This document shows positions 18,269-43,891 of a stretch of 43,905 nt of DNA, in pieces; the first letter of the stretch is position 1, and every line of letters begins with the position of its first letter. This DNA comes from a virus, in the IMG/VR virus record IMGVR_UViG_3300035698_014892, positions 1-43,905 of that record; one strand, written 5' to 3'. The notes beneath the pieces were generated by a model. The model ran no database searches. It saw only the letters and a program-made list of their open reading frames with translations, and was not told the DNA's origin. A program made the position numbers and the translations under genes.

Positions 18269-18499
18269 TTATCTTCTTTTAGTTGGTACTGGTTTATTTG
18301 GTTTATTTAGTGTACTACCAAGAGCTAAACCACCTATTCCTGCTACTCCAGTCGCTGCAGATATTTTAGGGTGTTTCACTACTGTTGAACCAACTTTAGA
18401 ACCAATGCTTTTTAACAAGCCTCCTGCCGCTTTTATACCTGCTCCAATACCAGCTGCTTTTTCTATTTCTTCTGTAAATGCCTTGAGTAAAAAATTCAT
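18269..18499 (-). CDS. Tagged small Gly-rich membrane-like protein
   Basis: I chose ATG at 18499, which shares its A with the upstream TAA and has GGAGGGAG at proper distance; ATG at 18514 lacks a ribosome site. The 76-residue protein begins MNFLLKAFTEEIEKAAG, a version of the shared tag, followed by Gly/Ala-rich hydrophobic segments separated by VVKHPKIS. A similar basic HP-hydrophobic unit appears in other tagged proteins. Likely an internal virion protein that interacts with membrane, by inference. Confidence 0.65.
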   Translation of the reverse strand: MNFLLKAFTEEIEKAAGIGAGIKAAGGLLKSIGSKVGSTVVKHPKISAATGVAGIGGLALGSTLNKPNKPVPTKRR

Positions 18500-19356
18500 T
18501 AGAACTCCCTCCATTCTATTCGTTTTTCCATTTGAGCTACCATTACATCTTTTATATCTGTAGGTACAGTTAACATCTTGTTTTCTATATCAGATTTATT
18601 CATTCTGTCTATTCGTGCCATCTGTTGTATTATAGTCCTTTGTGGAGCAATTGTCGAGACTCTTGTTATGCGCCATAACGAACCAGTATCTATTTCTATT
18701 AATACATCTCTAGGTTTAATAACAGGGTAATTACTCAATAATATATCTGATTGTCCCGGTTGTGATTCACCCCATGCAGCATGAGCAACATCCTTTGTAT
18801 TTGGTGCTATAAATTCTATCCAAACAGGTTGCGGTCCATCATATCCACCTAATATTCCTGTTCCACTACAAAAGGAACAAGAAGATGTCTTTTGTCTATT
18901 TGTAACTATATCCCAACAATGAGGACAATGCCCACTGTCACTTACAGTTCTTTCGTAATATAAAACACATGGAGATCCTATTCTCCATTCCAAGTGGTCA
19001 TCTAGTAATCGTATCATTTCAAGCATTTTATAATCCGGTTGAAATTCCCATGTTATAACATCTGACTCTATAATATTACCAGTAACAGTATTTGTGGCGA
19101 TCATCTTATAAAAGTATTCTCTATACTCATTATGAAGCAATGGCTCGTAATCTAAATACTCTCCGTTCGCCGTAGATGGAATAAATGTGTTAATGTTCTT
19201 GAATTCTGTTTCCTGATTATTACTTCTATATATAGCAAAACTATATTGTGACAAATCAAGTTTGGTAGGCTCTAACTCCCATTTTACTAGAATCTTGTGT
19301 GGATATAATCCTAACACAGTCACCCAAATACTTTCCCATTTTACTTCATTAATCAT
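18499..19356 (-). CDS. Probable neck/virion protein with FN3-like and zinc domains
   Basis: A 285-residue protein. Residues ~20-105 read as a fibronectin-III-like beta sandwich (KILVKWELEP...YSFAIYRSN...YFYKMIATNTVTGNI). Next comes C144-x2-C147 and C160-x2-C163 with CSFCSGTGILGG, a DnaJ-type zinc knuckle. The C-terminal part is mixed. Its position between capsid and sheath genes suggests a head-tail connector. It overlaps the preceding gene by ATGA. Confidence 0.6.
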   Translation of the reverse strand: MINEVKWESIWVTVLGLYPHKILVKWELEPTKLDLSQYSFAIYRSNNQETEFKNINTFIPSTANGEYLDYEPLLHNEYREYFYKMIATNTVTGNIIESDVITWEFQPDYKMLEMIRLLDDHLEWRIGSPCVLYYERTVSDSGHCPHCWDIVTNRQKTSSCSFCSGTGILGGYDGPQPVWIEFIAPNTKDVAHAAWGESQPGQSDILLSNYPVIKPRDVLIEIDTGSLWRITRVSTIAPQRTIIQQMARIDRMNKSDIENKMLTVPTDIKDVMVAQMEKRIEWREF

Positions 19357-19619
19357 TTGCTTTTAGAAAGCTCCTTTTCCATTATATCTAGACCAGTATA
19401 ATATTTATCAAACTCTTTTCTATGATCTTTAACAATACCAAATTCTGTCTCTAAAACTAATTTCATCATCTCGTCATGTGGCATATCTGGTCTTAATTTT
19501 TTAATCAAATCTATAATAGTCTGACGATGCTCTTGTTCAACCTTTTTACCCATTGTTATTTCTGTTTGGTCAGATGCTTCTTTTGTTATTCCTATAAAGT
19601 ATTCCATGCTCTTTCTCAT
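19353..19619 (-). CDS. Small helical late protein
   Basis: An 88-residue charged helical protein whose ATG overlaps the upstream TGA and whose stop overlaps the next start. It includes GITKEASDQTEITMGKK and an acidic-basic helix. No family recognised; it is translationally coupled within the neck gene group. Confidence 0.6.
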   Translation of the reverse strand: MRKSMEYFIGITKEASDQTEITMGKKVEQEHRQTIIDLIKKLRPDMPHDEMMKLVLETEFGIVKDHRKEFDKYYTGLDIMEKELSKSK

Positions 19620-20218
19620 TGTGTTTTCTCCTTTATCATATCATACAGTTTTTTACCCATATAAGTACCTGCCCCTAAAACGCCCAACTCTGATAACGCT
19701 AATAATGGCTTTGCTTTAGCTGCTAAGACCATACGCTTGAATCCATTAAGAATAGAATTTCGTCCCTTTTTTGATTTCATTCCACCATAAAAATATGCCC
19801 CCAACTCTGATTTACCTAAAATTGGAACTTTTTTATGAAATGCTTCATGATAGACTATCTCTCGTAAAGGTTTACTTACATCACGAACTACATCTCTATT
19901 AATATATATACTACCACCCTTCGGGGAATTAAGATAAGTACCACCTACGTTCCCTTCTATCTTGTTAAGAATCTTTAGATTTTCTGTTACTGCAAGATCT
20001 ATTTGTTTTCCAACAGTATTACCGCTCCTTAGGGCCTGTAATTTTTTAATAGGTAGATTTATACCCTGCCTTTCAGAAAGCCTCAGTATATTTCTATTAT
20101 TGTGTTTACTTTGTATTATTTTTATTTTATTATCTGGACCAAACTTTTTAAACAAGCGTTTAGCGTCACCTTCGGCAGCAAGTTTATCTAAATAAATGTT
20201 GAGTTTTTCATACAGCAT
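19616..20218 (-). CDS. HExxH metallopeptidase-like virion protein
   Basis: I prefer ATG at 20218 (just after the upstream stop; product MLYEKLNIYLDKLAAEG..., 200 residues), although an in-frame ATG at 20269 exists. The zincin motif HEAFH (His124, Glu125, His128) is followed by KVPILGKSELGAYFYGG, with Glu138 a possible third ligand. The segment IYINRDVV...HEAFHKKVPILG is clearly related to the product at 43316-43891. A C-terminal hydrophobic stretch (LLALSELGVLGAGTYMG) may touch membrane. It could be a peptidase delivered with the virion or a neck protein. Confidence 0.6.
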   Translation of the reverse strand: MLYEKLNIYLDKLAAEGDAKRLFKKFGPDNKIKIIQSKHNNRNILRLSERQGINLPIKKLQALRSGNTVGKQIDLAVTENLKILNKIEGNVGGTYLNSPKGGSIYINRDVVRDVSKPLREIVYHEAFHKKVPILGKSELGAYFYGGMKSKKGRNSILNGFKRMVLAAKAKPLLALSELGVLGAGTYMGKKLYDMIKEKTQ

Positions 20219-20222
20219 GTCA

Positions 20223-20687
20223 TTACCAATACCAACGTAAGTTTGCGTATTCTGACGATATTCCACCATAACAACTTTCTAGGTTAAGCTGCTTCTTATA
20301 GTTAACAATTGCCATGGATAATTGATTATATAAATTAGATATCCACGCCTGATATTCCCCTGCCTTATCACTTACCTGTACACTTAACCCACCAGACGAA
20401 TAATTCAATCTATTTCTACTTTGCAATATACCTTTCATTGTAAGAAGTTGAATAACTGCACCCTCTAATAAAAACTTTAATGAAGGAAACGTATCTAAAG
20501 TTAATGCTGATATAGGGGTTGTAGTATTATATGAGTCTATAGAAAGCATTATAGCTAGCTCCCTATCCGAGTCAGTACATTCTTCTTTTCTTATTAATCT
20601 ATTAAGTTGTTCGGAGTCTTGCATATAACTACGCAAGAATTCCTTTGCCTTTTCCAATAACCTGGTTTTTTCGCTATCAGTGCTCAC
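20223..20687 (-). CDS. Putative head-tail connector protein
   Basis: A 154-residue protein starting at GTG (GTGA overlap with the upstream stop). It is helical with no enzyme motif; an LDTFPSLKFLLEGAVIQLLT segment and an ending NLRWYW are seen. Position one gene after the capsid gene suggests a head completion or connector protein. Assignment by synteny only. Confidence 0.5.
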   Translation of the reverse strand: MSTDSEKTRLLEKAKEFLRSYMQDSEQLNRLIRKEECTDSDRELAIMLSIDSYNTTTPISALTLDTFPSLKFLLEGAVIQLLTMKGILQSRNRLNYSSGGLSVQVSDKAGEYQAWISNLYNQLSMAIVNYKKQLNLESCYGGISSEYANLRWYW

Positions 20688-21169: not shown

Positions 21170-21191
21170 CGTGTAATCCCCTTTAAGTTTT

Positions 21192-21229: not shown

Positions 21230-21245
21230 CCATTCTATTATACTC

Positions 21246-22199
21246 TTACGGAGTTAGACGTGGATTAGTCCAAACACCAGGAATACTCTCTACTTCAGTA
21301 ACTACCAGTTTAGCTGTACCTCTGATATTACCTAGTCCAAGACCAACAAGTTCCCAAGACTGCCAGCTGATCATATCAGCTTCTTTCTTGATGAAAAACT
21401 TAGTGTCATTAAGAACATAGAAGTTTCCAAGATACTTAGGATCTGCGAAAGCATAAACTGTACCAGGCTCTAGCAAACCAGTCTTTATAGAAACAACTAG
21501 CTTGTGTCCTAGTATAGTGTTGTACTTATAACCATTAACTGTTATTTCACCAGCAAGGTCAGTACCTATCTTCCATCCATCCTGAACCAAGAAATCATCA
21601 TAATCTACTTTATGGCAAAGTACGCAACCAACAGCCAACTCGTCACCATCTATCATCTTACATAGCTGATTAAAGTTTACTCTGTCAAATCTTGTTATAC
21701 CAGTTCCAGTAGCTATTTCTTTTCCTGTTATTGCAACGGCTGCATCAACATACTCTAGGAACTTTGAATCCTCTTGATACTGAATGTCCTTTATCGAATT
21801 ATCTTCGATAACTTTTGTGATCGGAAAGTTATAGGCCATAAGTTCAGCTTCATTCTTTGAAAACTTTTCAGAAGCTATCTTGAAAAAAGGTATTTCGAAC
21901 CTTTTACCTGTTATGTACCTGTTCGTTGGTTTTCCACGGAAGTTAAGAACCATAGCAGCAGATCTAGGTTCGATATCATCAATTTTAACTAATGTATCGT
22001 GGTTTACTGATCTCTGTAGGTCAACTTTTGTAACAACCTGTGGAGGAAGAATCTTTCTTACAAAAGACACTTCTCTTAATTTTTCTCTAATAAACGCGCC
22101 GCCCGCCTGAGCAGCCTTCTGAATACCATCTTCTGTATCTAACTTAGATACAAACAGATGATTAAATGTTGAGACGTCAATACTATCTACATAACTCAT
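21246..22199 (-). CDS. Probable major capsid protein, HK97-like
   Basis: A 317-residue protein in the position expected for the capsid gene, after protease, scaffold-like and decoration-like genes. It has a strong AAGGAGG site and a following terminator, both fitting high expression. Features include KILPPQVVT, a KRFEIPFFKIASEKF segment, and a C-terminal KKEADMISWQSWELVGLG resembling the last strand of HK97-like capsids. The N-terminus carries IQKAA at residues 26-30, matching the motif proposed here for prohead protease processing. The fold is inferred from pattern and synteny. Confidence 0.72.
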   Translation of the reverse strand: MSYVDSIDVSTFNHLFVSKLDTEDGIQKAAQAGGAFIREKLREVSFVRKILPPQVVTKVDLQRSVNHDTLVKIDDIEPRSAAMVLNFRGKPTNRYITGKRFEIPFFKIASEKFSKNEAELMAYNFPITKVIEDNSIKDIQYQEDSKFLEYVDAAVAITGKEIATGTGITRFDRVNFNQLCKMIDGDELAVGCVLCHKVDYDDFLVQDGWKIGTDLAGEITVNGYKYNTILGHKLVVSIKTGLLEPGTVYAFADPKYLGNFYVLNDTKFFIKKEADMISWQSWELVGLGLGNIRGTAKLVVTEVESIPGVWTNPRLTP

Positions 22200-22706: not shown

Positions 22707-23060
22707 TTATTCGCTATAAACAAATCTTTCGATTGGGTTGCCCCCACGGCCCATAGTAGTCGATACATTACCTATGCTATCGAAACCTGAATCCATGTCT
22801 AAAGCTCTATTTACAACATCCATGTCCTGCGTCATTAGTTGAGCCACTTTTTCATTAAACTCTTTAAAGCTTGAAAACTGTGGAAATTTTCCTCTTTCAA
22901 CCATCTTAAAAGCAAGTTCTTCTGCTGCCTTTTGAATACTAGCAGTTTTTTCAAGATCAGTTACTCTCAAAGAAAGAACATCTCTTTCTTCCCCTACTTT
23001 TTCAATAGCTTCAGCGGTTTTTTCAACTAACACTTTGTCTACCAAGATTTTATTATTCAT
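22707..23060 (-). CDS. Small helical head protein with K-x-A motifs
   Basis: A 117-residue protein rich in charged helix with LVEKTAEAIEKVG, LEKTASIQKAAEEL and NEKVAQLM units, and a Gly-rich C-terminus (TTMGRGGNPIERF). The repeated hydrophobic-x-K-x-A units resemble those in other head-region proteins. It is a candidate prohead core component trimmed by the protease. No family recognised. Confidence 0.6.
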   Translation of the reverse strand: MNNKILVDKVLVEKTAEAIEKVGEERDVLSLRVTDLEKTASIQKAAEELAFKMVERGKFPQFSSFKEFNEKVAQLMTQDMDVVNRALDMDSGFDSIGNVSTTMGRGGNPIERFVYSE

Positions 23061-23288: not shown

Positions 23289-23720
23289 TTATTTTCCTTT
23301 CTTTTTATGTAGAGAAGGGTTAAACTTCCGAAGTCCTGGTACCGCATGAACAGCAGTAACACCGGCAACCGCTGCTGGAACCGCAAGAGTTCTAAGTCCA
23401 GCTAGACGAGCTGCATTAACACCTTTCTTAACAGCAGCAGGAGCAGATTTATCTGCACCCTTGGTTACTACAGCTTTTGCTGCGTCCTTTACTGTTTTAC
23501 CGTAACCTTTTACAGCGCCAACTACCTGTTTTGCAACACTAGCAGCACCAGCAATCTTTTCCATTTCGGATATATATCCACGAGCCATAATTCTACCCAT
23601 AGTAACATATTCCTCAGCTGTCTTTAAAAGATTCTCGTCAACCTCTTTTACTGCGACAGAAGCAGCAACTTTTTCTATTTTGTGATCTTCAACGATATTA
23701 AAAAAATCTGTAAGTCTCAT
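23289..23720 (-). CDS. Tagged head protein, paralogous N-terminus
   Basis: A 143-residue protein with GGAGG upstream. Residues ~32-58 (LLKTAEEYVTMGRIMARGYI, then SEMEKIA) are almost identical to the start of the protein at 42505-42903, about 19 kb away. The rest is an Ala/Lys-rich basic region resembling a DNA-binding or membrane-active peptide (AARLAGLRTLAVPAAVAGV). It looks like an internal head protein with a removable leader. Confidence 0.65.
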   Translation of the reverse strand: MRLTDFFNIVEDHKIEKVAASVAVKEVDENLLKTAEEYVTMGRIMARGYISEMEKIAGAASVAKQVVGAVKGYGKTVKDAAKAVVTKGADKSAPAAVKKGVNAARLAGLRTLAVPAAVAGVTAVHAVPGLRKFNPSLHKKKGK

Positions 23721-23730: not shown

Positions 23731-24117
23731 CTATTCGTAGTATTTGTTTATTAGAGCTTCTCTATAAGCTGCATTCTTTTTCATTTCGTCTTTTATAACT
23801 TCTTTTAGATTCTCTTCTTTTCCTTCATCTGCTGCGTCTTTATCTTCTTTAGTTTCTTCTTTAGTTTCTTCTTTTTTAACTTCAGCTTTCTCTTCTTTAG
23901 CTTCTTCCTTCTTGGCTGCCATTTCTTCAGCAAGTTTTGGAAGACCATTAGTTGACCTAGCAAAATCCTGGCCTATTACAAAAAGTTCACCAGCAAGTTT
24001 CTTAAGTCCTTCAACTTCCTCTGAAGCCTGTTTAACAAGTTCGTTTGTAGGCTCATTAACGGAAGCTGTTTTTTCTACTGAAGCCATTTTAGCTTCATAC
24101 AAGTCTTTTAAGTTCAT
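23731..24117 (-). CDS. Acidic scaffold-like protein
   Basis: A 128-residue protein with GGAGGT upstream. Its middle is a Glu/Lys-rich low-complexity stretch (about residues 67-105), typical of prohead scaffold or core proteins. It carries VEKTAS, LVKQASEE, LKKLAGEL and LPKLAEEM motif units. Position just downstream of the protease gene supports a scaffold role, which remains inference. Confidence 0.55.
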   Translation of the reverse strand: MNLKDLYEAKMASVEKTASVNEPTNELVKQASEEVEGLKKLAGELFVIGQDFARSTNGLPKLAEEMAAKKEEAKEEKAEVKKEETKEETKEDKDAADEGKEENLKEVIKDEMKKNAAYREALINKYYE

Positions 24118-24134: not shown

Positions 24135-24881
24135 TTATTTTGTTTCAGCTAATACTTTTTTTTCTACTGCTACTTCTTTGTTGTCCTTTGATATTTTATT
24201 ATCCTGTCCATTCTCTGTTCCAGCATCGCCTTTAGCTTTTCCTAGAAGTTCTCTAACTGCATTCTCAACCAAAACATCATCAACATCATTCTCTGTTTCA
24301 ACTTCGATACCTGTGGTATCAGCTACTGAACCATGTCCATCATAATTAGTTGGAAGTTCAGAAGGAGAAGGTCCTACTACTTCATTTTTGTCAGTCTCTA
24401 CGCCAACAGCTTCATTAGCACGTTTTTCTATTTCGTTTATAAAACCCATAGCCATAAAACGTCCAGCAGCTTCCTGTTCTTCAGCTATTTTCTCTAATTC
24501 AAGATACTCATTTGCTTCAGCAGATGCAACTTTATCAAGTACTTCTTCTTCTGTTTCTGTAACAACTGGCTCAACAACCTCTGCAGTTTTCTCAACAGTT
24601 GAGACGCTTTCCCATAATGCTTTCAAACTATCCATTTCCATTCCTCCTTTTTTATCTAGTTCTTTATTTTCTTCTTTTTTCTCTTCACAAATTCCCAAAC
24701 CTCTACCTGTTTTAGGGCCCTTACCTTCAGGACCTGTTTTATCAAGTTTTCTTCCAACTTCACCTTTTGCATTTTCTTTCATTTTGTCAACAGCGCTTTT
24801 TGTTGTATCTTCTTCTGCTACCTTCGATAGCCCGTCATCAAGATCTACGCCGTATGATTTACACATTTCTTTTAGATTCAT
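24135..24881 (-). CDS. Acidic scaffold/core protein with TGPxGKGP motif
   Basis: A 248-residue acidic protein with a strong AAGGAGG site. Near the N-terminus it carries DKTGPEGKGPKTGRGLGIC, almost identical to the start of the small protein at 30872. Later it has VEKTAEVV, LDKVASAE, LELEKIAEE and the tag-like FMAMGFINEIEKRANEAV. The composition suits a scaffold or internal core protein cleaved by the prohead protease. No family recognised. Confidence 0.6.
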   Translation of the reverse strand: MNLKEMCKSYGVDLDDGLSKVAEEDTTKSAVDKMKENAKGEVGRKLDKTGPEGKGPKTGRGLGICEEKKEENKELDKKGGMEMDSLKALWESVSTVEKTAEVVEPVVTETEEEVLDKVASAEANEYLELEKIAEEQEAAGRFMAMGFINEIEKRANEAVGVETDKNEVVGPSPSELPTNYDGHGSVADTTGIEVETENDVDDVLVENAVRELLGKAKGDAGTENGQDNKISKDNKEVAVEKKVLAETK

Positions 24882-24904: not shown

Positions 24905-27214
24905 CTAAAACTTACTAGTTGCTTTTACTACTTTATCAAATACAACCGAATCAATATTCTCTGATACTGAATCATTTGGGAAAATAGATCCCCAAATTTG
25001 TTCATTTATCGCGTCTCTCGCTGGAGATGAATTACCCATACCGAGTTCATACGAACTTGTCTTGGTAATGGTTTTCCCCAAGTCCTTCGCATTACGTCCC
25101 ATTACCTTACCCTTTACTATTCTATACATTTGTGGGGAAAAAGCAAGTGCACCCGCTGAAATTCCAGGATGTTTTCGGATAATTGATGCAGTTCTACTTT
25201 CATGCGCTGTTGGGTTTTTAGCTTTTCTTACTTCCAACACACCACTAGCCATATACATAGCCGGGACACCTATAGCTATCCTTGCAAGTGTATTAGCAGA
25301 TCCGGACCCAAATAATAGATTTTTAACCCCTCCTAATTTATTGATCGGATTTTTATTCCTTTCTACAACTGTAGATAGATAATTAGTCTGGTCAACATTA
25401 TGTAACGGAGTTGTACTATCATAGTTTCCAATTTCGTTTGGCTTCATCATGTAATTAAGTGCTGCTGCGATACCAGCCCCAGTTAGTCCAATTACTGCTG
25501 CCTTAGCTGCAGTGTTTTTAGAAAAAGCCTTCTCTAAAAACTTACCAATTTTAGATGTAGCAGATTGTTCAGGCATAAGTGTTAACCCCCCAACAGATGG
25601 GCGGCTATCGGTCATTACACCTTTGAGATATAAATAAAGCCCACCAAGAGCAGCAAGTGTTGGAATCATTTCATCCCTTTTTTGCTTTACAATCTTTACA
25701 GTTTCACTTTCTGGTTTAACCTCCGGCGCATAGCCAACACTATGGTCAATTGGTTGCCAACCTTCAGTTAAAGGATTTGTTCCTTTACCGTAAATTTTGT
25801 CTCTATTAGGACCACTACTTGATAAACCAAAAAAACTGTCCCCAGAGCTAGCTATCTTATCTAGTCTATTGAAAAAAAATGGCGCAAGTGCTGAGCGATC
25901 TTCTACATACATTGATATTTTATCTATTACGTCTTTATTAATATTGTCTACATTATATTCGGCAAGTTTTTTTATTTCATCTATTTCTGTCAAAGGGGTA
26001 ACAGACCTAAAATCAACTCCTTGTTTATCTAGTTCGTCTGCTAGCTTTTTCTCACCTATTTTTACAAGTATTATCCTTTGAAATTCTTTAGGTTTAGGCA
26101 TAATACCCATAGATATTAGAGATGATAGTATTTCCTGAGTACTATGGTTATTGCATAAATTATCTATGCACTCTGGAGTAATATCTTGTTCATGTTCTTT
26201 TAACATTGCCATTCTATTTTCTAATTCAATTGCTTTTTCTTCTCTTTCTTCAGTAGCCAATGGAACTCGTTTAATTATATCAGCTGTTTTGTCTTCAGCT
26301 TTTTTATTTATATTGTTTATACCCATAGCCACCTTTAATACATGATTTTCATCTACATATGTAAGTCCAGAAGAAACAACATCGTAAAGATTAGGAACCT
26401 GTACACACGTTGCCCTATTATACGCGACTTTCTCTAATATTCTACCAGGACGCCATGCTGGAATAAGTACTCTTGATATATCAAAAAACTTACCCTCTCT
26501 ATTAAAACGTCCAACCTTTTTACCATCTGGTTGTACATAACCTAGTCTATATGGAAACAATGGTTGATGCTTTATATTCATTTGCTTTTCATTTGGTATC
26601 ATCCCAATTACAGATCCTATAGCATGTTCACAATAATCAGTAAGTCTTGATGCTTTCTGACCGCAAATACTACAAACATCGTATTTTGCTTTGAATCCCA
26701 TACTAACACCGACACAACCACTATCTATATCTACAAGTAAAGAAGTGTCTCTATTCATATCGTACCAAACAACTAATTCAACCCTATCCATTTTTTCATT
26801 AAATTCCGATCGTAATACTTTATCCCCATAAACCATATGTCCCTGGTCTGGTTTGTTTCTATGATGTTTAAAAGGTAATCCAAACTCTTCGTAAGATTTA
26901 TGTAGTTTGTCTTCCACGAAAACATATCTTTCAAACCCGTCACCGTTCTTATTAAATCCATAAGCTTCATAAGAACCAAGTGCAGATATAACACAAGCAA
27001 CCCATCCATCACGTGGTTTTAATACACCTATCGTTTCTTGTATTGCTGGATGATAATCTTTCATCCCAATAGATGCAGTTTTTTCTAGATCTATTTTAGG
27101 AGTGATCCATGTAATAACTTCTAAACCACTAGAGTTTACTGGCTCAAAAATTAAATTCTTTTTGATACCAAAATCACCTTCCTTTTCTAAATAACTAAAA
27201 AAATTGTTTCCCAT
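24905..27214 (-). CDS. Prohead protease fused to long C-terminal region
   Basis: I chose ATG at 27214 (MGNNFFSYLEKEG); ATG at 27250 overlaps the preceding gene and adds 12 residues. Numbering from 27250, residues ~90-225 form a phage prohead serine protease domain: NKNGDGF, then His129/His130 in FKHHRNKPDQG and Ser183 in GVSMG. A zinc-like set C193, C196, C207, H209 follows. The remaining ~550 residues have K-x-A units and several hydrophobic segments (AAVIGLTGAGIAAALNYM). The protease should process capsid and core proteins during head maturation. The fusion is unusual. Confidence 0.8.
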   Translation of the reverse strand: MGNNFFSYLEKEGDFGIKKNLIFEPVNSSGLEVITWITPKIDLEKTASIGMKDYHPAIQETIGVLKPRDGWVACVISALGSYEAYGFNKNGDGFERYVFVEDKLHKSYEEFGLPFKHHRNKPDQGHMVYGDKVLRSEFNEKMDRVELVVWYDMNRDTSLLVDIDSGCVGVSMGFKAKYDVCSICGQKASRLTDYCEHAIGSVIGMIPNEKQMNIKHQPLFPYRLGYVQPDGKKVGRFNREGKFFDISRVLIPAWRPGRILEKVAYNRATCVQVPNLYDVVSSGLTYVDENHVLKVAMGINNINKKAEDKTADIIKRVPLATEEREEKAIELENRMAMLKEHEQDITPECIDNLCNNHSTQEILSSLISMGIMPKPKEFQRIILVKIGEKKLADELDKQGVDFRSVTPLTEIDEIKKLAEYNVDNINKDVIDKISMYVEDRSALAPFFFNRLDKIASSGDSFFGLSSSGPNRDKIYGKGTNPLTEGWQPIDHSVGYAPEVKPESETVKIVKQKRDEMIPTLAALGGLYLYLKGVMTDSRPSVGGLTLMPEQSATSKIGKFLEKAFSKNTAAKAAVIGLTGAGIAAALNYMMKPNEIGNYDSTTPLHNVDQTNYLSTVVERNKNPINKLGGVKNLLFGSGSANTLARIAIGVPAMYMASGVLEVRKAKNPTAHESRTASIIRKHPGISAGALAFSPQMYRIVKGKVMGRNAKDLGKTITKTSSYELGMGNSSPARDAINEQIWGSIFPNDSVSENIDSVVFDKVVKATSKF

Positions 27215-27224
27215 ATTATTAATA

Positions 27225-27818
27225 TTAATATGCCTTGTTTGGAGTTGCATACCAACGATCTGAATCTATTCCTTTTTCTCCCTGTCCTGGGTTTGCATAT
27301 TTGTTTTCTGGTAGTATAGACCCCCTTAGTAAACTAGTGCCTCCACTAAAGACTCTGTCAGCTATATCCATTCTTGAATTATTAGTGTCACTGTATTCTT
27401 TATGTGTTTTTACCAAACTACCAACAGTTGTTGGGTCAACTAATCCGCCCTGTGAAGCAATAGCATGCCTAATAAATGGTTTTGCAACTTCTGGTGTTGC
27501 AGCTAGTGCTGGAGCAAATTTAGCAAGAACGTTGAATGCCCCTCTTACAGTAGCTTCTGTTATACCCGAGTTAGCGGCAATCGCATCCTGTATAGCAGGA
27601 TCTTCTAGTACTACATCATACGACGTATTAACCTCATTCTTTATTTTTTTGTTTTTAACGTAGTTTACAGCTTGTCTAGTTCCCTCTATTCCGACTCCAA
27701 GACCAGTGGCAACAGCCATTGCTGGAAGGAGGTTATTAAAAACCTTTCCAACCTGTCCGATGAACCCAGCGTTTTTTTCTAATTCATTTATAAAACCATT
27801 TAATGCGCTACTTTTCAT
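27225..27818 (-). CDS. Tagged late protein with hydrophobic segment
   Basis: A 197-residue protein with TAGGAG upstream. It starts SSALNGFINELEKNAGFIG, a clear copy of the shared tag, then a hydrophobic Gly-rich stretch (LLPAMAVATGLGVGIEG) and a long helical Ala-rich domain. Probably an internal virion protein processed by the neighbouring protease. No family recognised. Confidence 0.65.
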   Translation of the reverse strand: MKSSALNGFINELEKNAGFIGQVGKVFNNLLPAMAVATGLGVGIEGTRQAVNYVKNKKIKNEVNTSYDVVLEDPAIQDAIAANSGITEATVRGAFNVLAKFAPALAATPEVAKPFIRHAIASQGGLVDPTTVGSLVKTHKEYSDTNNSRMDIADRVFSGGTSLLRGSILPENKYANPGQGEKGIDSDRWYATPNKAY

Positions 27819-28626: not shown

Positions 28627-28986
28627 TTATATCTCCTTAGCATATTGACGTGTTTTTGATATTAAGGAATGAGCAACGGGGATACCAATAGCACTTATAA
28701 ATAAAGCCTTCCCTGGATTTCTAACTACTTTCCCTAATAGTTTTTGAACACCTGATCCAGCTGCATCCAAACTTTTAAAAGCTAATTTTCTAGCTGGGGC
28801 ACCTGCTTTGTATCCTTTCACTACACCTTTCCTTGTTATATTACCAAGTAATCTTCCTGTGCGATTCAATTTTTCAAATGGTTTACCTGCAACCATTTTA
28901 AAAGCAGCAGCGCTAGTACCCTTAGGAGGGTAAAAGGTTGCTTTTTTAGTTAGCTCATTATAAAATCCAGTAAGTATTGAATTCAT
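28627..28986 (-). CDS. Tagged basic late protein
   Basis: A 119-residue basic protein starting MNSILTGFYNELTKKATF, a clear copy of the shared tag. It is rich in Lys, Arg and Gly and ends with VVRNPGKALFISAIGIPVAH, a basic plus hydrophobic unit that may insert in membrane. Its ATG shares a base with the upstream TAA. Candidate internal virion protein. Confidence 0.65.
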   Translation of the reverse strand: MNSILTGFYNELTKKATFYPPKGTSAAAFKMVAGKPFEKLNRTGRLLGNITRKGVVKGYKAGAPARKLAFKSLDAAGSGVQKLLGKVVRNPGKALFISAIGIPVAHSLISKTRQYAKEI

Positions 28987-30380: not shown

Positions 30381-30470
30381 TTGATGGTTAAAAGTCAATG
30401 TCTTTTTAGTATATAATGTAGGGGTACTATAAGGGTAATAACCTTTAACCGCCACTTTTAGACGTATGTC

Positions 30471-30478
30471 TGGTATAA
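30471..30478 (+). promoter_or_regulatory. GGTATAAG promoter-like octamer, copy 3
   Basis: The octamer follows CT and is followed by ACAAGTAAGAGGAAGAAGTG, a downstream pattern shared with copies 4 and 6. It supports transcription starting near 30485 and therefore a coding start at 30544, not at the ATG at 30466. Confidence 0.5.
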
Positions 30479-30543
30479 GACAAGTAAGAGGAAGAAGTGT
30501 GATATCCACATTTTCTACCATAAATAAAAAACGGAGGATAGTT

Positions 30544-30729
30544 ATGAAAGAAAATTACAGCGCGGTAAATTTGTTTTCACTTGGCACAACACCTACAAGT
30601 GAAGAAATTACAGTACCAAGAAAAATGGCAACATGGAAAAAGAACACATTGATCACTGGTATAGCACTTTCAATTGCTGGTACAGTTGGTTACCTATGTT
30701 CAAGACCATCAACAAAAAAAACAAAGTAA
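30544..30729 (+). CDS. Small single-pass membrane-like protein (YSAVNLF)
   Basis: ATG at 30544 is chosen because CGGAGG is well placed and the promoter-like octamer lies downstream of an earlier in-frame ATG (30466). The 61-residue protein begins MKENYSAVNLFSLG and has one hydrophobic segment (TLITGIALSIAGTVGYL) with a Lys-rich end. Its N-terminus matches the protein at 31069, including a near-identical 27-base stretch. Possible roles are holin-like, exclusion or virion membrane protein; none is shown. Confidence 0.6.
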   Translation: MKENYSAVNLFSLGTTPTSEEITVPRKMATWKKNTLITGIALSIAGTVGYLCSRPSTKKTK

Positions 30730-30871: not shown

Positions 30872-31072
30872 ATGCCAAGAGGAGACAAAACAGGTCCCCA
30901 AGGAAAGGGGCCAAGTACCGGAAGAGGACAGGGCGGATGCACACCTAATGTAAAACCAACAAATACAGGAAAGGGACAAGGAAGTGGATTGGGTAATGGC
31001 CGTGGGAACGGCTTGGGAATAGGTAATAGATTAGGAAAAATACCCGGTAGCACCGGAAGGAGAATTAAATGA
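30872..31072 (+). CDS. Small Gly-rich TGPxGKGPxTGRG protein
   Basis: A 66-residue protein with AAAGGAGG upstream. It starts MPRGDKTGPQGKGPSTGRGQ followed by GGC, a pattern known from short DUF5320-type proteins of bacteria and archaea, then Gly/Asn-rich low complexity and a basic end. The same 19-residue unit occurs in the scaffold-like protein at 24135. It overlaps the next gene by ATGA. The motif has no established biochemical role in phages that I can name. Confidence 0.65.
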   Translation: MPRGDKTGPQGKGPSTGRGQGGCTPNVKPTNTGKGQGSGLGNGRGNGLGIGNRLGKIPGSTGRRIK

Positions 31073-34700: not shown

Positions 34701-34781
34701 TTGACTTATTTCTTTGAGCTCTTGCTCCTCAGCAGAAACTTCAATGTCTCCTTGTTGTGTAGCACCTTTTTTTTCTGTCAT
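31701..34781 (-). CDS. terL: Terminase large subunit interrupted by intein
   Basis: A 1026-residue precursor. Residues 1-113 and 539-1026 are terminase; residues 114-538 are an intein. After splicing, the Walker A region reads FARQSEK-STTIS. The ATPase Walker B is RLMIDEIQDL, and the C-terminal nuclease has GVDWGTG, LLVVDWG and the late acidic NQPDDACHS. The mature enzyme (~601 residues) would cut concatemeric DNA and pump it into the prohead. The intein sits in the ATP-binding loop, so the precursor should be inactive. GTAGG lies upstream of ATG. Confidence 0.93.
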   Translation of the reverse strand: MTEKKGATQQGDIEVSAEEQELKEISQEMSYNANVAESGEVMFQDIKLVAKREKIITDIGEKLRIESRRSDWAQALLFLNREPFRLTGRDYLQQIYNLNYPDLLLKFARQSEKCCEISTSLLMKNGELKQAKNVAIGEELISIDITNNESTVGKVTWKSKIYKKPCYKIKTRQKHCITVGEEHPIRQFDKWTFAKDIKAGDRISVIKNGGIFGNDKSYANEEIKLLAYILGDGYIGKAAICFTNIKPIILNDYISCLESIGIHKTAKAQKNRNTFIISHTHLNIIKECGLLGKKSATKFIPDFVFNLDKKTTALFLNRLWSTDGSILPSKRNTNIEYCSISKQMIHQIQSLLWKFGIPSNIRENLPNIYKKRGEFGKVAYILKVETTEGNQVFLNEIGALGKSEGIILTDRVSNNNMDTFPKEEVNALIKKIYKGLYKNTKGIHGNTMHAKEVNEGMVRLDPKPRYALTRPKLQRYVDFFRSSKTYDQVLVDQLEALLYSDIYWDRVKSVEYVGEQECIDFTVEKNNNYICDGIVTHNSTTISTFMVIDAVLNRCLSQLFVSPTADQTRTFSSQKIKPLLEESPMIKKFFINSSVEAQVFNKGLVNGSKMLLRYAFLTADRCRGISASRLMIDEIQDLLWDNIPVILEVLSHAIEPKRIYSGTPKTFENPIEKFWQDSSQCEWLVPCEHHIPAFYNLLDLSNIGKTGLICKKCGKPLDPKKGRWVKMNPGIFDFMGFRVTQIMVPWKQDEEQWRVNFIAPMEGPNAIEKGVYLNEKLAISSDNADKPVSREDIIRCCDHTADSEYSYIDIFQDHKLISSAEVFAGVDWGTGQERKSASGKKKYASFSVFSMMTRLPNGKKWYFYQKRFRGAEADPLFIKEFIQRVYSIIPFRLLVVDWGFGWGINNDLFRMFPGKVMQVQYVPRQRNKVKWDSVGYKWQVNRSLIMSEFFHQLRHEKIQLPSWSQFETYATDILAIFNDYSMNPATKNELFYNHPVNQPDDACHSMILADFGYDKYYNIEPMMVSK
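33168..34442 (-). other. Intein with LAGLIDADG endonuclease in TerL
   Basis: A 425-residue intein. It begins at Cys114, with block-A spacing CCEIST and a following Gly-Glu segment, and ends ICDGIVTHN just before Ser539. The penultimate His and terminal Asn are present for splicing. Block B reads TVGEEHP, with Gly where Thr is usual. Two endonuclease motifs are visible: LLAYILGDGYIG (225-235) and ALFLNRLWSTDG (313-324), so it is probably a homing-competent intein. Taking the first of the two adjacent cysteines as residue 1 restores RQSEKST in the host protein. Confidence 0.9.
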
Positions 34782-35671: not shown

Positions 35672-37741
35672 CTACAACGTCTCTAGGGCACTTATTACTT
35701 TATCTAACGCCTTGAACGCTCTTACCGTTTGGTCTTCATCTATTGCATCAGCACCTAGACGAGAAGCTAAGGTAAGTTGACAAAGTTTTGAAGCTGCATC
35801 ATGGAAACGTGGAGTAAAATCTTTGAATATTGACAAGTTATCTGGGTTGATAAAATTTAGTGATAATACAGAATCAACTGTCTCTACTCCTTCAAGTTTA
35901 GCTGTCTTAGTTAGAAACTTTGATAATATCGATCCATCATTCTGAACACCAACTAAGCTAGCTGCTTCTTTTACTAAACAAGATTTCAATCCATTTGTTA
36001 TAGCAATAGCATTGTTAATCTTGTCTTTAAAAATACCTGCACTTTTCATCAGATACTCTGCTTTTGTTGGTTTGATATATTTAGGATATATCTCTTTCAA
36101 ACCAGCAAAATGATCATCTGCTTGTTTTAATATTTCACTTGCAGTTTTTTCATTATAACCAAGATTTTCTAAAACAAATATTGCATACTCTTTATCTGAA
36201 TTATTCAGATCTACCGGACTGGTTGATGCGTATTTTTCAACACCCTGTATAGCATAGTAGCCGTCACGTTTTGAAATTACTCTAACTTTATGACCATTAT
36301 TATTTGCTTTGTACTCGGACACCTTAACCATGCCAAATGCATCTGCAAGATCTACAAGTCTTGGAAGTGCAACAAATTTCATATGGTTAGGTATCGAAAC
36401 TACACGTTCTTCTGTATCTGTTTGTATTGAAGGAACATTTTGGTATTTTTCTTTGTTCTTTTCGTTTGGATCATAAGATGTTGTAACTTTCTGCGCAATA
36501 CTGTCAATAGTGAACACTGTTGGTATCCCGTAGAAATCTATTGCATGGACCTTTAACGCATCTTCTTCTGTTTCTATCATTCTAACAGTAAAAGGTATTA
36601 CTGCTATTGCCTTAATAGTTTCATTCATAGCGTTTTTTTCATTTTCGTAAACAAAAGTTCCGAACATACCAGGGTTTAATTCTGACGTTTGCGTTGATAC
36701 TCCAGAGTTGATTTTCTTACCTATTATACTACCTGAGAAAGAACTATTCTCTCCGCATATAAACAATTTTTTATTTACTGGTTCTTGATTATAGTTAACT
36801 ATGTTTGGTATTACTGTACCTCTTAATAATTCCCCATCGTGACGACTAACAATATATGTTGCGAACTCATTAGCTTCACCAACTTCTTCGTATTTCAAAC
36901 TTTGTGTCTCTGCAGATGTATCACCATCTTGAACATCAGCAAGAGATGAAGAATGTACTACTCTTTTAGAAAATGTATCTCCACCCATTTCACTATCAAT
37001 TTCTGCTTTTTTAACTATTTCTGTTTTAAGCTTAGGATCCCAATAAAGCATAGGGGAACTAGCTATTTTAAGTTTATTATGAGCAACCTTTTCAATCATA
37101 TATACAAGGTCTTCTTCACCAACTTCTGATGCATATTTCTCTAATTCAGGCGTACTATCTTCTGCTTTTGAAACAGTATCCATAATCTCCATAGTAATAG
37201 GACTAGATGCTAGTTTTGCTAATGTAGGTCTGTCTATTGCGTCCTTAAATGCCTCTACATCATTTTTGTATAACTGTAGAGATGATACCTTAAACATTCC
37301 ACCTGCTGGTGGATGACTTGCTTCGTACTGAGATATAACTTCTCCAGCTGACATATACGGTTTAGGAGTAACAGTTTTGTTGAATATTGACATAGCAGAG
37401 AATATCTTATTAAAGTTCAAATTTGTGAGAGGTAACATTTTATCTTCATATATTAATATATCTAAAGGTGCTAACATAAAATTCCTAATCACAACAGGAA
37501 TGCCTACTTGGCACTTACCTTGTTTATCCCTTATTATAACAGAACCAACAAAATACCCCTTCTCGGCATCTACCGTTTTTGTTTCAAGATTAATGAGTTT
37601 GTCAGTAAGAGCGTCAACTCGTTTATATACCTCAGAGTATATTTTATCCTTCCACTCCATTTCGGAATTTCCAGCTCTGATATAAGAAACTATATCACTT
37701 TGTTCCGCTTTGTCTTTTGAAAAGAAATTTTGTAAACTCAT
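35672..37741 (-). CDS. Large virion protein with many K-x-A motifs
   Basis: A 689-residue protein with GAGGTG upstream. I count at least nine hydrophobic-x-K-x-A units (TLAKLAS, LEKYAS, IEKVAH, IVKKAE, VEKYAS, ILKQAD, LMKSAG, LVKEAA, LTKTAK), against one in the 540-residue GroEL. The N-terminal 160 residues look like a separate domain. It does not show portal features. A head-internal, protease-processed protein is the most economical reading; function unknown. Confidence 0.6.
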   Translation of the reverse strand: MSLQNFFSKDKAEQSDIVSYIRAGNSEMEWKDKIYSEVYKRVDALTDKLINLETKTVDAEKGYFVGSVIIRDKQGKCQVGIPVVIRNFMLAPLDILIYEDKMLPLTNLNFNKIFSAMSIFNKTVTPKPYMSAGEVISQYEASHPPAGGMFKVSSLQLYKNDVEAFKDAIDRPTLAKLASSPITMEIMDTVSKAEDSTPELEKYASEVGEEDLVYMIEKVAHNKLKIASSPMLYWDPKLKTEIVKKAEIDSEMGGDTFSKRVVHSSSLADVQDGDTSAETQSLKYEEVGEANEFATYIVSRHDGELLRGTVIPNIVNYNQEPVNKKLFICGENSSFSGSIIGKKINSGVSTQTSELNPGMFGTFVYENEKNAMNETIKAIAVIPFTVRMIETEEDALKVHAIDFYGIPTVFTIDSIAQKVTTSYDPNEKNKEKYQNVPSIQTDTEERVVSIPNHMKFVALPRLVDLADAFGMVKVSEYKANNNGHKVRVISKRDGYYAIQGVEKYASTSPVDLNNSDKEYAIFVLENLGYNEKTASEILKQADDHFAGLKEIYPKYIKPTKAEYLMKSAGIFKDKINNAIAITNGLKSCLVKEAASLVGVQNDGSILSKFLTKTAKLEGVETVDSVLSLNFINPDNLSIFKDFTPRFHDAASKLCQLTLASRLGADAIDEDQTVRAFKALDKVISALETL

Positions 37742-40249: not shown

Positions 40250-40295
40250 ACATTTAACCAGCTAAAAAGTTGGAACTAAAACAGGAGGGATCTAC

Positions 40296-40697: not shown

Positions 40698-40708
40698 TAG
40701 GCAGAAAG

Positions 40709-40716: not shown

Positions 40717-40721
40717 ACTAA

Positions 40722-41048: not shown

Positions 41049-41099
41049 AATCGGTTTTTTTTAGTTATTTATTCTTTTATTTAAATTAATTCCTACAGA

Positions 41100-41468
41100 C
41101 TACTTACTCCTAATATACGCTACAGGTCGTGGTGATATTTGATACGACGTTTGTTTATCACTTATCTCTTCGGCCCAACGTGTAGCCCCACGCATATCCT
41201 CATCCTGTTGTGCTGTATCTTTATCATAAATAGCATCTCCATCTTCGGCTCTACCATTGTCTGTATATAGGGTATCGTCTCCATCTTTACGTAGTTTATT
41301 CTTTTTGGGTATATATGTTATGCAATCTTCAAACATATTACCTTCTGCGGTTCTATGAAGCATAGCACTTTGTCCACCAGTGTAATCTTCTGGAAACCAC
41401 TCAACAGTAGGACGGGTAATTGCTAACTTAGTAAGTTCTGATGTAAAGCCTTTTAGTATAATATTCAT
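41100..41468 (-). CDS. Tagged late protein, unknown function
   Basis: A 122-residue protein starting MNIILKGFTSELTKLAITRP, a clear copy of the shared tag. The rest is polar and acidic (KDGDDTLYTDNGRAEDGDAI). GGAAG serves as a modest ribosome site. A candidate internal virion protein; no domain recognised. Confidence 0.65.
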   Translation of the reverse strand: MNIILKGFTSELTKLAITRPTVEWFPEDYTGGQSAMLHRTAEGNMFEDCITYIPKKNKLRKDGDDTLYTDNGRAEDGDAIYDKDTAQQDEDMRGATRWAEEISDKQTSYQISPRPVAYIRSK

Positions 41469-41469
41469 G

Positions 41470-41637
41470 TTACTTCCATTTAATAGAATTCGGGCTAGAA
41501 TAACCGGCTACTTTCATACTCTTGGGTTTTTTATAATAATTAACCTTCATTTTGCTAGGGTCTTTCTTGAATTTATCGCGGACTATTTGTGCTCTCTTTT
41601 CTAGCTCATTTATAAAACCACTTAATATATTATTCAT
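41470..41637 (-). CDS. Short tagged basic protein (55 aa)
   Basis: A 55-residue frame starting MNNILSGFINELEKRAQIV, an exact fit to the tag consensus, followed by a basic tail (KFKKDPSKMKVNYYKKPKSM). Its ATG overlaps the upstream TGA, with GGGAG before it. The tag is almost a third of the protein, so after cleavage only a ~40-residue basic peptide would remain. Confidence 0.7.
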   Translation of the reverse strand: MNNILSGFINELEKRAQIVRDKFKKDPSKMKVNYYKKPKSMKVAGYSSPNSIKWK

Positions 41638-42002
41638 AACGTTCTCCCTAATTCATCCCAATTATTATTAAAGTGTTTTGCTCTATCATCTATAAAATAC
41701 TTAGCAACGGGTTTACCTTCTTTTTGTTCTATTATTTTATCATAAGGAATACCTTTTTCTTTTATATATTCCTTCATAACCTTCATCTTGTCATCGGTAA
41801 ATCTAACATTATTTCTGGCACTAAATATTCCTATTTCATATTTCTTCTGAAGCTTTTTTAAATTTTCTATAACCCCATTTTTAAGCCCTGTTATAGCATA
41901 CCCTTTTTTAGAGTCTGAATTAACAATTGTGTTATCAAAATCAACTGCAAGCAAGGGTTTTGCCAGTTTTTCTATTTCTGATTTAAACCCAACCAAAATC
42001 AC
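41634..42002 (-). CDS. HAD-type phosphatase with N-terminal virion tag
   Basis: A 122-residue protein starting at GTG (GTGA overlap). Residues 2-14 (ILVGFKSEIEKLA) are the shared tag. The HAD motif I LLAVDFDNTIV (Asp21, Asp23) follows immediately, then motif II-like IFSARNN (Ser61), Lys98, and motif IV FIDDRA (Asp105, Asp106). It would hydrolyse a phosphoester such as a nucleotide or 3'-phosphate end; the substrate is unknown. The tag directly before the catalytic domain suggests the enzyme is packaged and released by cleavage. Confidence 0.8.
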   Translation of the reverse strand: MILVGFKSEIEKLAKPLLAVDFDNTIVNSDSKKGYAITGLKNGVIENLKKLQKKYEIGIFSARNNVRFTDDKMKVMKEYIKEKGIPYDKIIEQKEGKPVAKYFIDDRAKHFNNNWDELGRTL

Positions 42003-42490: not shown

Positions 42491-42504
42491 GTTATACTCC
42501 TGTT

Positions 42505-42903
42505 TTATTTCTTCTTATTGTATGTTTTACGGATTCTATCAGCCTCATCTACTACCTGGTGTGCCCTTAAAGATCCCCTTAAACTTAACAAACCTCCAAT
42601 ACCAGCTCCTACTCCAGCGCCAATTAATCCACGTTTGATACCTTTTCCTCTTTTAAAACCACTCAAAGCACCAACCCCTGCTCCTACAGAACCTAAAATA
42701 CCTGCGTTAAGAGCTGCCGTTGGCCCGTGTTTTAATTTTCCTGTTTTTAAATCATAAAAGGTTCTATCAGATTTTTCTTTTAGAGTTCTGTTTTCCCTTT
42801 TTGTAAAAGCAATCTTCTCCATCTCCGAAATATAACCCTTGGCTATGATTCTCCCCATAGTCATATATTCCTCGGCAGTTTTTACTAATTCATCGTTAAA
42901 CAT
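42505..42903 (-). CDS. Tagged glycine-zipper protein
   Basis: A 132-residue protein with AAAGGAG upstream. The first ~32 residues (LVKTAEEYMTMGRIIAKGYI, then SEMEKIA) are nearly identical to residues ~32-58 of the protein at 23289. The C-terminal half has Gly-zipper segments (ILGSVGAGVGALSGFKRGKG, then GAGVGAGIGG) typical of membrane-inserting peptides. Candidate internal head protein acting on the host membrane. Confidence 0.7.
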   Translation of the reverse strand: MFNDELVKTAEEYMTMGRIIAKGYISEMEKIAFTKRENRTLKEKSDRTFYDLKTGKLKHGPTAALNAGILGSVGAGVGALSGFKRGKGIKRGLIGAGVGAGIGGLLSLRGSLRAHQVVDEADRIRKTYNKKK

Positions 42904-42915
42904 AATTTTACTCCT

Positions 42916-43326
42916 TTATATTAATCCTTTTTGGTAGAACTGAATATTGTGTCCTGGTATAATTGGAAAGCTTAAATCAAATGGTTTGTCAAAAGTATTA
43001 GTTCTAGCTTTTTCAGGATCTGTTTTCTTTAGCCATCTTCTTGCAGCTTCAGTCTGTTTATTATCGCTATTAGCTCTCATTGCTGCTAATGCTGCTCCTA
43101 AACTAGCACCGAAAATACCGGTCTTAAATCCCTTTCCTCCAAGTTTTTTAGATAGGTAATATCCTAGTGCTGCGCCAATTGAACCACCAACTATTGGTTC
43201 AACTACTACATTGTGTTTGTCTTTTTTAGCCCAACCTTCTGCGAGATCATCAGTAGTAGTGAAATCAGTATCAAGAGCTCTTTTTTCTAATTCTGATATA
43301 AAACCTTTTAATATATTATTTGACAT
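42916..43326 (-). CDS. Tagged glycine-zipper protein
   Basis: A 136-residue protein starting MSNNILKGFISELEKRALDT, a near-ideal copy of the tag. The middle has two Gly/Ala-rich hydrophobic segments (VGGSIGAALGYYLSKKLGG and TGIFGASLGAALAAM) resembling a Gly zipper. The C-terminus is polar. It overlaps the upstream gene and has no strong ribosome site, suggesting coupling. Confidence 0.68.
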   Translation of the reverse strand: MSNNILKGFISELEKRALDTDFTTTDDLAEGWAKKDKHNVVVEPIVGGSIGAALGYYLSKKLGGKGFKTGIFGASLGAALAAMRANSDNKQTEAARRWLKKTDPEKARTNTFDKPFDLSFPIIPGHNIQFYQKGLI

Positions 43327-43891
43327 ATTTTTTAATATTAGCCCCCATATTTAATAGACTACGCCAAGCCTGATATCCTTTTTTACCCAAATGACCCTTG
43401 GTTCTTGCTGCACCATATAATCTAGCTCCAGCTTCTCCTACAACAGGTGCTCTGCCAATTATAGGTACTTTGTGAAACTGCTCATGGTGAAAAGTGTTTC
43501 TCACAGAGGCAGGAGCACTAAATCGTTTCCCTGCCTTAAACTCCGCTCTAGCTTTCTTTATCCCTTCGACATTAATATATGTCTGTTTTGTTCGAGGGAT
43601 ATACATGCCTTTTACTCTATCCATTTTCTTTGCTGTTACCTTTCTAACTTCTTTACTGGTTTCGGCTAAATTTGGGACCCTGTCTCTGGATTTATTTATT
43701 ATAGCAGTTTTATCCGAAGGATTCAATCTATGCCTACCTGTATTTTCTTCCTGACGCTTACCTCTAGCAAAAAAGGTATTAGGTATAGTTTTAATCTTTA
43801 AGGCTGTCTTCTCAAGCTCCATCTTAAACCCATTTAATATGTTTTGTGTATGATTCAAATTAATCTTCCCAATCGCCAAAGTTTGTTCCAT
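43316..43891 (-). CDS. Tagged HExxH metallopeptidase-like protein, start uncertain
   Basis: A 191-residue frame from ATG at 43891. The frame stays open to the window edge, so the true start may lie outside or be internal. Residues 18-30 (ILNGFKMELEKTA) are the shared tag. HEQFH (His136, Glu137, His140) is followed by KVPIIGRAPVVGEAGARLYG, with Glu153 a possible third ligand. It is related to the HEAFH protein at 19616. It could be a zinc peptidase carried in the virion; substrate unknown. Confidence 0.68.
   Translation of the reverse strand: MEQTLAIGKINLNHTQNILNGFKMELEKTALKIKTIPNTFFARGKRQEENTGRHRLNPSDKTAIINKSRDRVPNLAETSKEVRKVTAKKMDRVKGMYIPRTKQTYINVEGIKKARAEFKAGKRFSAPASVRNTFHHEQFHKVPIIGRAPVVGEAGARLYGAARTKGHLGKKGYQAWRSLLNMGANIKKYVK

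Follow-up and report, generated by a model that had tools for sequence, protein, structure and literature searches.

A shared twelve-residue tag on unrelated late phage proteins is likely a capsid-targeting propeptide

What would lead a dozen otherwise unrelated late proteins of one virus to carry the same short run of residues? The question is raised by the window, by which we mean the whole 43,905-nucleotide stretch analyzed here (IMG/VR virus record IMGVR_UViG_3300035698_014892). A sequence-only reading had reported a 13-residue tag starting I-L on at least ten proteins, at 43316, 42916, 42505, 41634, 41470, 41100, 28627, 27225, 24135 and 23289, with a looser version at 18269, and six-frame scans found the tag at every one of these coordinates, the looser copy included. 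The count proved too low, the protein at 17939-18253 having been overlooked, and the definition held only in part, as a 12-residue form with L, M or A first, [LMA]-x-[GA]-[FY]-x-x-E-[LIM]-x-K-x-A, fits better. In the same scans, all 12 tags of the window were in late genes and on the minus strand only:

43802-43837, minus strand: tag LNGFKMELEKTA, residues 19-30 of protein 43316-43891, a basic HExxH protein
43276-43311, minus strand: tag LKGFISELEKRA, residues 6-17 of protein 42916-43326, a Gly-zipper-like membrane peptide
42808-42843, minus strand: tag AKGYISEMEKIA, residues 21-32 of protein 42505-42903, with LVKTAEE ahead of the tag
41961-41996, minus strand: tag LVGFKSEIEKLA, residues 3-14 of protein 41634-42002, a HAD-type phosphatase
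41590-41625, minus strand: tag LSGFINELEKRA, residues 5-16 of protein 41470-41637, with a basic cargo of 39 residues
41421-41456, minus strand: tag LKGFTSELTKLA, residues 5-16 of protein 41100-41468
28939-28974, minus strand: tag LTGFYNELTKKA, residues 5-16 of protein 28627-28986, basic
27768-27803, minus strand: tag LNGFINELEKNA, residues 6-17 of protein 27225-27818
24417-24452, minus strand: internal tag AMGFINEIEKRA, residues 144-155 of protein 24135-24881, with LEKIAEE ahead of the tag; a predicted core or scaffold protein, encoded between the protease and the major capsid protein
23550-23585, minus strand: tag ARGYISEMEKIA, residues 46-57 of protein 23289-23720, also between the protease and the major capsid protein, with LLKTAEE ahead
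18452-18487, minus strand: tag LKAFTEEIEKAA, residues 10-21 of protein 18269-18514, very basic
18104-18139, minus strand: tag MSGFRSELFKKA, residues 39-50 of protein 17939-18253, with YKEA ahead

With one loose regular expression, the open reading frames of the window yield 12 copies, against 0.0045 expected from 2000 residue shuffles. A search of related phages, which the sequence-only reading had proposed, brought the pooled count to 87 in the window and 24 IMG/VR relatives, where the reversed motif gave 0 and shuffles gave 0.45. The tag and its spread are thus shown at the level of sequence; the set itself rests on a regular expression derived from this same window, and D at tag position 6 is inflated because the second DNA pattern demanded D-E. 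Mean tag-to-tag identity is 56% for protein and 59% for DNA, and falls to 43% when third codon positions are taken alone. The tags have thus diverged in DNA, as the sequence-only reading had also stated.

That reading further placed the tag at the extreme N-terminus in most proteins and otherwise after an N-terminal segment, and this held, with the tag starting within residues 1-10 in 7 of the 12 and at residue 19 in 43316 and residue 39 in 17939. Deeply internal tags are preceded, at a gap of 1-8 residues, by a second K-x-A, so that a cut at that site would excise the tag. In 42505, 23289 and 24135 the tag forms part of a more extended conserved stretch, K-x-A-E-E-x-x-x-x-G-R-[FI]-[MI]-A-x-G-[FY]-I-x-E-[MI]-E-K-x-A, which is present also in proteins of the relatives.

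The claim that the downstream domains differ (HAD phosphatase, HExxH protein, Gly-zipper peptides, short basic peptides) was upheld as well, and the cargo is unrelated. PHROGs and Pfam supplied names for almost none of the window's tagged proteins. In the HAD-type phosphatase, which has a weak Pfam NIF match (residues 17-65) and an untagged homologue in phage Tunturi_3, the first HAD strand begins 3 residues past the tag. More generally, complete cargo domains start just past the tag, and homologues without the tag start at the equivalent residue. The domains found on tagged cargo include HAD, SNF2 helicase, LigD-type prim-pol, inorganic pyrophosphatase (InPase) and papain-like domains; one tagged protein has an InPase domain together with HNH, and several are Gly-zipper membrane-like proteins. 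Tagged proteins are mostly short (the part after the tag has a median length of 108), and most have a single recognized domain or none. Their mature parts have a pI above 9 in 93% of cases, versus 39% of size-matched untagged open reading frames, and the after-tag part of 43316-43891 reaches 11.0. At the locus syntenic with 28627, the gene of the relatives is also tagged and keeps its tag while the body diverges (55% versus 33% identity). As a side observation, the HExxH region of 43316-43891 is similar to the untagged protein 19616-20269.

Blind DNA-pattern scans for the tag alone identified 32 further contigs, and 21 of these encode the same family of major capsid protein, versus none of 25 contigs with chance matches (Fisher p 1e-7; the control contigs were shorter and were chosen after viewing). 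This link to one capsid family is likewise shown. The first pattern scan also caught an unrelated 29-residue frame, MITLLNGFLxELVKIALAFASILPIGLLS, in other contigs, none of which has this capsid protein. Viral contigs searched with the whole protease as a single protein gave no relatives; those used here were recovered by alignment of the capsid protein and by tag patterns. The tag consensus had no match among 50,697 phage records, cultured relatives included, so no experimentally tested case is available. A genome scan for the host returned two MAG contigs from different phyla (Methanoregulaceae and Deltaproteobacteria), probably through binning, and no host is assigned.

The last residues of the tag recur well beyond it. 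In an unbiased pair scan, K-x-A was the most enriched residue pair in the window's late proteins, and [LIVM]xKxA occurs 59 times in the late genes versus 12.5 expected, 2 times in the early genes versus 5.0 expected, and 0-1 times in the main tail and baseplate proteins. Late genes in which it recurs, with the major capsid protein, are:

21246-22199, minus strand: major capsid protein (phrog_2522, E 3.4e-18), with homologues in Arash and Vibrio phages
22110-22124, minus strand: IQKAA motif in the N-arm of the major capsid protein; G25, K28 and A30 are invariant across 10 aligned capsid proteins
22707-23060, minus strand: scaffold-like protein adjoining the major capsid protein, three [LIVM]xKxA motifs
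23731-24117, minus strand: Glu/Lys-rich core-like protein, four [LIVM]xKxA motifs
35672-37741, minus strand: conserved structural protein, nine [LIVM]xKxA motifs versus 1.2 expected

The K-x-A of the capsid N-arm is near-invariant (67 of 72 distinct N-arms). Homologous capsid protein and protease are found in Salmonella phage Arash, Vibrio phages D69, D148 and D181, Bacillus phage G and cluster C mycobacteriophages; in Arash and D181, both of them cultured and distantly related, K-x-A again ranks first among pairs in the head genes and falls outside the leading pairs in the tail genes, as it does in early genes; the signature is weak in phage G. That K-x-A marks head proteins is shown by these counts, with the caveat that E-x-x-K and L-x-K could be favored in helix-rich basic proteins, for which the shuffles and the tail and early genes are a partial control.

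A candidate for the enzyme that would act at such sites is encoded close by:

24905-27250, minus strand: predicted prohead (head maturation) protease with a C-terminal extension (weak phrog_18299, AF2, Foldseek)
27074-27088, minus strand: LEKTA motif ahead of the protease domain, a candidate autoprocessing site
26423-26437, minus strand: LEKVA motif past the protease domain; L272, K274, V275 and A276 are invariant in 8 aligned sequences

K-x-A thus brackets the predicted protease domain on both edges. The AF2 model of the domain, from an alignment of 35 sequences, has a pTM of 0.73, and the fold of the whole protein is of low quality (pLDDT 48). Among the Foldseek matches of the model in BFVD are phage G gp19 and proteins named as prohead or head maturation proteases. 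H81 and S134 (numbering of the folded stretch) are invariant in the 35 sequences, and their catalytic role is inferred. Neither sequence nor fold searches of the PDB gave a match for the protease, so the assignment of its class depends on weak matches in PHROGs and on predicted structures of viral proteins.

We suggest that the tag is likely a capsid-targeting propeptide of the T4 kind with a different processing motif, an inference from sequence made without virion proteomics or N-terminal data. Its basis is several independent lines, namely the K-x-A head signature, the co-occurrence with one capsid protein, the placement of the tag, the domain starts and the basic cargo: tags that are N-terminal or lie behind another K-x-A are as expected of an excisable propeptide, and basic cargo fits DNA-associated internal proteins. 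During prohead assembly, the hydrophobic-G/A-F-x-x-E-[LIM] part would bind the prohead core; as the tag segment is built into predicted core proteins, cargo probably joins the core by copying a core assembly motif. The predicted protease would then cut at the terminal [LIM]-x-K-x-A, freeing mature cargo inside the head, to be packaged alongside the DNA and delivered when the phage infects. Core binding, cleavage and the scissile bond (after K or after A) are inferred, and packaging and ejection are assumed by analogy with T4. The proposal of the sequence-only reading, a T4-like F-x-x-E head-loading signal removed by the protease, is therefore supported as the best reading, with packaging, cleavage and injection not shown.

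In T4, the internal proteins IPI, IPII and IPIII carry a CTS propeptide, with a targeting part followed by a processing motif, and gp21 is the prohead protease (PMC9026906). The likeness lies in a short N-terminal propeptide common to several otherwise unrelated proteins and in the gene neighborhood, with a predicted prohead protease encoded close to scaffold-like and capsid proteins. However, the T4 motif is L/I-x-E whereas the recurring motif here is [LIM]-x-K-x-A, so we regard the tag as analogous to a CTS rather than classing it as one, and no sequence homology is claimed; the tag is also found on up to 12 proteins, on enzymes and within core-like proteins. The proteases of phiKZ and SPN3US (gp175, gp245), also large phages, process many proteins of the head and of the ejected set, each at several copies of a short recurring motif (PMC10052503, PMC9026906), but they cut after Glu, most of the propeptides are long, and the relevant sections describe no tag common to the cargo. 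Polyvalent proteins of phages and plasmids contain effector domains predicted to be delivered, of which InPase is typical (PMC5512222), as on our InPase and HNH protein; in contrast to their multidomain architecture (2-15 domains), the tagged proteins are mostly small and single-domain, and delivery would rest on the tag. We found no earlier description of the tag or the K-x-A motif in the literature searched, which leaves out most subscription papers and all preprints.

The strongest alternative, though an unlikely one, is that the tag is a docking helix, never removed, which anchors minor proteins on the shell or core of the head, with K-x-A as part of its docking surface. This would account for head association and conservation, and there are no cleavage data to contradict it. 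However, the capsid N-arm, the protease edges, the scaffold-like proteins and 35672 have K-x-A on its own, apart from the remainder of the tag, and a second K-x-A flanks the deeply internal tags; cleavage by a protease accounts for this pattern better than docking does. We consider it very unlikely that the tag loads proteins into the tail or the lumen of its tube. Extracellular contractile injection systems do use short N-terminal signals on varied cargo, which is a precedent, but none of our results implicates the tail. Head genes are where K-x-A is concentrated, sheath, tube and baseplate genes lack the signature, and proteins whose genes lie between those of the protease and the capsid protein contain the tag element as part of their own sequence. 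There is similarly little to commend a cytoplasmic sorting signal, directing proteins to a replication compartment or membrane during infection rather than into the head. Large phages can form compartments, and several cargoes are Gly-zipper membrane-like, but this leaves unexplained why the tag ends in a head-protein motif and why core-like head proteins contain it internally. The counts (12 versus 0.0045, 87 versus 0), the diverged DNA, the unrelated cargo, the many contigs and the tie to one capsid family all but rule out that the tag arose by chance, from the composition of short helical proteins or through recent duplication of a single gene start, even though the tags are short and one scan caught an unrelated frame.

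On the propeptide reading, K-x-A would become a testable new prohead-protease motif, the copying of a core-protein segment would be an evolutionary route for cargo recruitment, and the tag itself might serve as a short signal for loading foreign proteins into large heads. Phage proteins delivered with the DNA usually remain unknown without virion proteomics. Should the tag prove to be the signal for loading, sequence alone would give the cargo of a widespread uncultured lineage, as a list of candidate takeover and anti-defence proteins. We lean, by a modest margin, toward a bolder form of this reading. In it, all members of a lineage of uncultured large phages would share a single modular code for head loading, taken from a segment of their own core protein and removed by a prohead protease of new specificity, for K-x-A. 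The code would serve many unrelated cargoes (SNF2 helicase, prim-pol, pyrophosphatase and peptidases among them), and the delivered set of each member could be deduced from its sequence.

A six-frame translation of the window, an IMG/VR virus record of 43,905 bases, was scanned for the tag, a 12-residue segment of the form [LMA]-x-[GA]-[FY]-x-x-E-[LIM]-x-K-x-A, and all of the sites that the sequence-only reading had placed on otherwise unrelated late proteins held as real, all on the minus strand and all in late genes; the protein at 17939-18253 is an additional carrier. A single loose expression matches 12 times in the window ORFs; residue shuffling predicts 0.0045. The tags differ at the DNA level, with 43% identity at third positions, and it is therefore the peptide that is conserved. 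The tag set depends on an expression derived from the window itself, ORFs in the contigs were called mechanically, the records are fragments, and the head, tail, late and early gene classes were assigned by us from gene order and homology. The window features needed here are as follows.

21246-22199, major capsid protein (MCP)
23289-23720 and 24135-24881, minus strand, tagged core-like proteins
24905-27250, predicted prohead protease
28627-28986, minus strand, tagged protein
35672-37741, conserved structural protein
41634-42002, minus strand, tagged HAD-type protein

The MCP matches PHROG 2522 and, used as a query, retrieved ten IMG/VR contigs at 47-64% identity; its distant cultured relatives are Salmonella phage Arash, Vibrio phages D69, D148 and D181, phage G, and cluster C mycobacteriophages. 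Each uncultured relative has several proteins that bear the tag. The window together with 24 relatives yields 87 tags, 64 of them distinct, compared with 0.45 in shuffled proteins and none for the reversed motif. Two DNA-pattern scans blind to the capsid protein yielded 32 further contigs judged worth testing, 21 of which encode the MCP family, versus 0 of 25 contigs whose hits we took to be chance frames (Fisher p 1e-7, a value that flatters, as the control contigs were shorter and were picked after looking). In the MCP neighbourhoods of 74 MCP-selected loci, the only part searched, 17 more tags were found and the reversed motif was again absent. A search of INPHARED records gave no match to the tag consensus. 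A 29-residue frame, MITLLNGFLxELVKIALAFASILPIGLLS, conserved in many small viral contigs (L054, L056-L058 and others), was rejected as an unrelated mimic.

Mechanical ORF calling puts 31 of the 64 distinct tags at the N-terminus; a further 20 have a Met 3-8 residues ahead of them, and a start there would in most of these cases make the tag N-terminal too. Deeply internal tags follow another K-x-A after a gap of 1-8 residues, as in the following examples.

EKVA-MNF-ISGFGDELVKMA
KKVA-SAGIEDAL-LAGFVDEFNKIA
AKTA-M-LRGFEDELQKIA

Cutting at K-x-A, the end of the tag, would therefore remove it in both classes. Recognised domains start soon after the tag, on proteins of these kinds.

HAD phosphatase (window, 41634)
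Inorganic pyrophosphatase plus HNH
SNF2 helicase
MazG plus P-loop
LigD-type primase-polymerase (contig L072, 10458-11222, minus strand), an unusual enzyme for a virion if the prediction is right
Peptidase C92
Peptidase C39

Weak Pfam matches (HAD as NIF, Pkinase) are of low quality, and the HAD call is backed by a phage homologue. Tagless homologues begin at the residue equivalent to the post-tag start: the Tunturi_3 HAD protein, with a GTG or TTG start, opens with LATEQKTICVDFDQT at the point matching tag-KPLLAVDFDNT in the window counterpart, and the Arash helicase opens with MPEYQLRDHQSRV at the point matching tag-DVITPLKAHQQRV in its tagged counterpart. Pyrophosphatase homology runs from residues 19-23, the tag ending at 17. 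The part after the tag has a pI over 9 in 93% of cases, versus 39% of untagged 60-300-residue ORFs from the same phages (p 7e-16). The gene next to 28986 is tagged in the window and has kept its tag in G001, G003, G006, G009 and G010 among the relatives (the last near-identical to G001), with a degenerate one (K-M-G) in G004; identity is 55% in tag columns versus 33% elsewhere. Separately, an HExxH region is common to tagged 43316-43891 and untagged 19616-20269, both on the minus strand, which are 33% identical there across 95 columns.

The broader form [LIVM]-x-K-x-A occurs 59 times in window late proteins versus 12.5 expected, and twice in early proteins versus 5.0 expected. The excess sits in the protease, scaffold-like, core-like and 35672-37741 structural proteins; at most one occurs in any sheath, tube or baseplate protein. 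When all residue pairs at spacings 1-5 were scanned, K-x-A was the top enriched pair in window late proteins (z 5.7; 5.2 with tags removed) and in the head genes of Arash (z 4.9) and D181 (z 7.7), was weakly enriched in phage G (z 3.4), and fell outside the top ten in tail genes and in early genes. The MCP N-arm has a K-x-A that does not vary across ten aligned sequences; of 72 distinct N-arms, 67 contain it and 3 others have K-x-S. In the protease, L272, K274, V275 and A276, directly after the domain, are invariant in eight aligned sequences, and another K-x-A lies ahead of the domain in the window protein, most relatives, Arash and D181. We infer, from sequence alone, that K-x-A is the apparent cleavage site of the head protease; cleavage is unproven and the cut bond undetermined. 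If the cut falls after K, the site would be L-x-K, comparable to the L/I-x-E of T4; if it falls after A, which is also possible, the site would span five residues.

The 24905-27250 protein matches a head maturation protease PHROG weakly, its Arash and D181 homologues better. When a model of its protease domain (AlphaFold2, 35 sequences, pTM 0.73) was compared with viral predicted structures by Foldseek, it matched phage G gp19 and a number of proteins named as prohead or head maturation proteases; a PDB search gave nothing useful. Two residues of the folded stretch, H81 and S134, do not vary, and could on that ground be the catalytic residues.

The window holds other features of note. Two small membrane-like proteins, 30466-30729 and 31069-31278 (plus strand), have a second common N-terminal element, YSAVNLF[SA]L, which was not found in the relatives examined. 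A 19-residue stretch (DKTGPxGKGPxTGRG), 79% identical, occurs in a small ORF at 30872-31072 (plus strand) and in core-like 24135-24881; the stretch resembles DUF5320 proteins. An intein-like insertion some 440 residues long interrupts the large terminase (31701-34781, minus strand), phrog_9666 matching 153-547 and phrog_675 from residue 545. Judged from its sequence, the virus has an apparent GroES/GroEL pair of its own (2443-2727 and 2728-4350, plus strand).

Core and scaffold genes are usually located between those for protease and MCP. As 24135-24881 and 23289-23720, which are encoded there, and relatives of both contain an extended version of the tag, we propose that the cargo would mimic a segment of the core protein. 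In T4, the capsid targeting sequence is a short propeptide, made up of a targeting and a processing part, that different internal proteins have in common and that the gp21 protease cuts off (PMC9026906). On our reading the tag would be a propeptide of this kind. We do not class it as a T4 capsid targeting sequence, because its processing motif differs and homology is untested. Since independent lines of sequence evidence agree, we consider it likely, by analogy and with packaging, cleavage and ejection unproven, that the tag works as the T4 capsid targeting sequence does.
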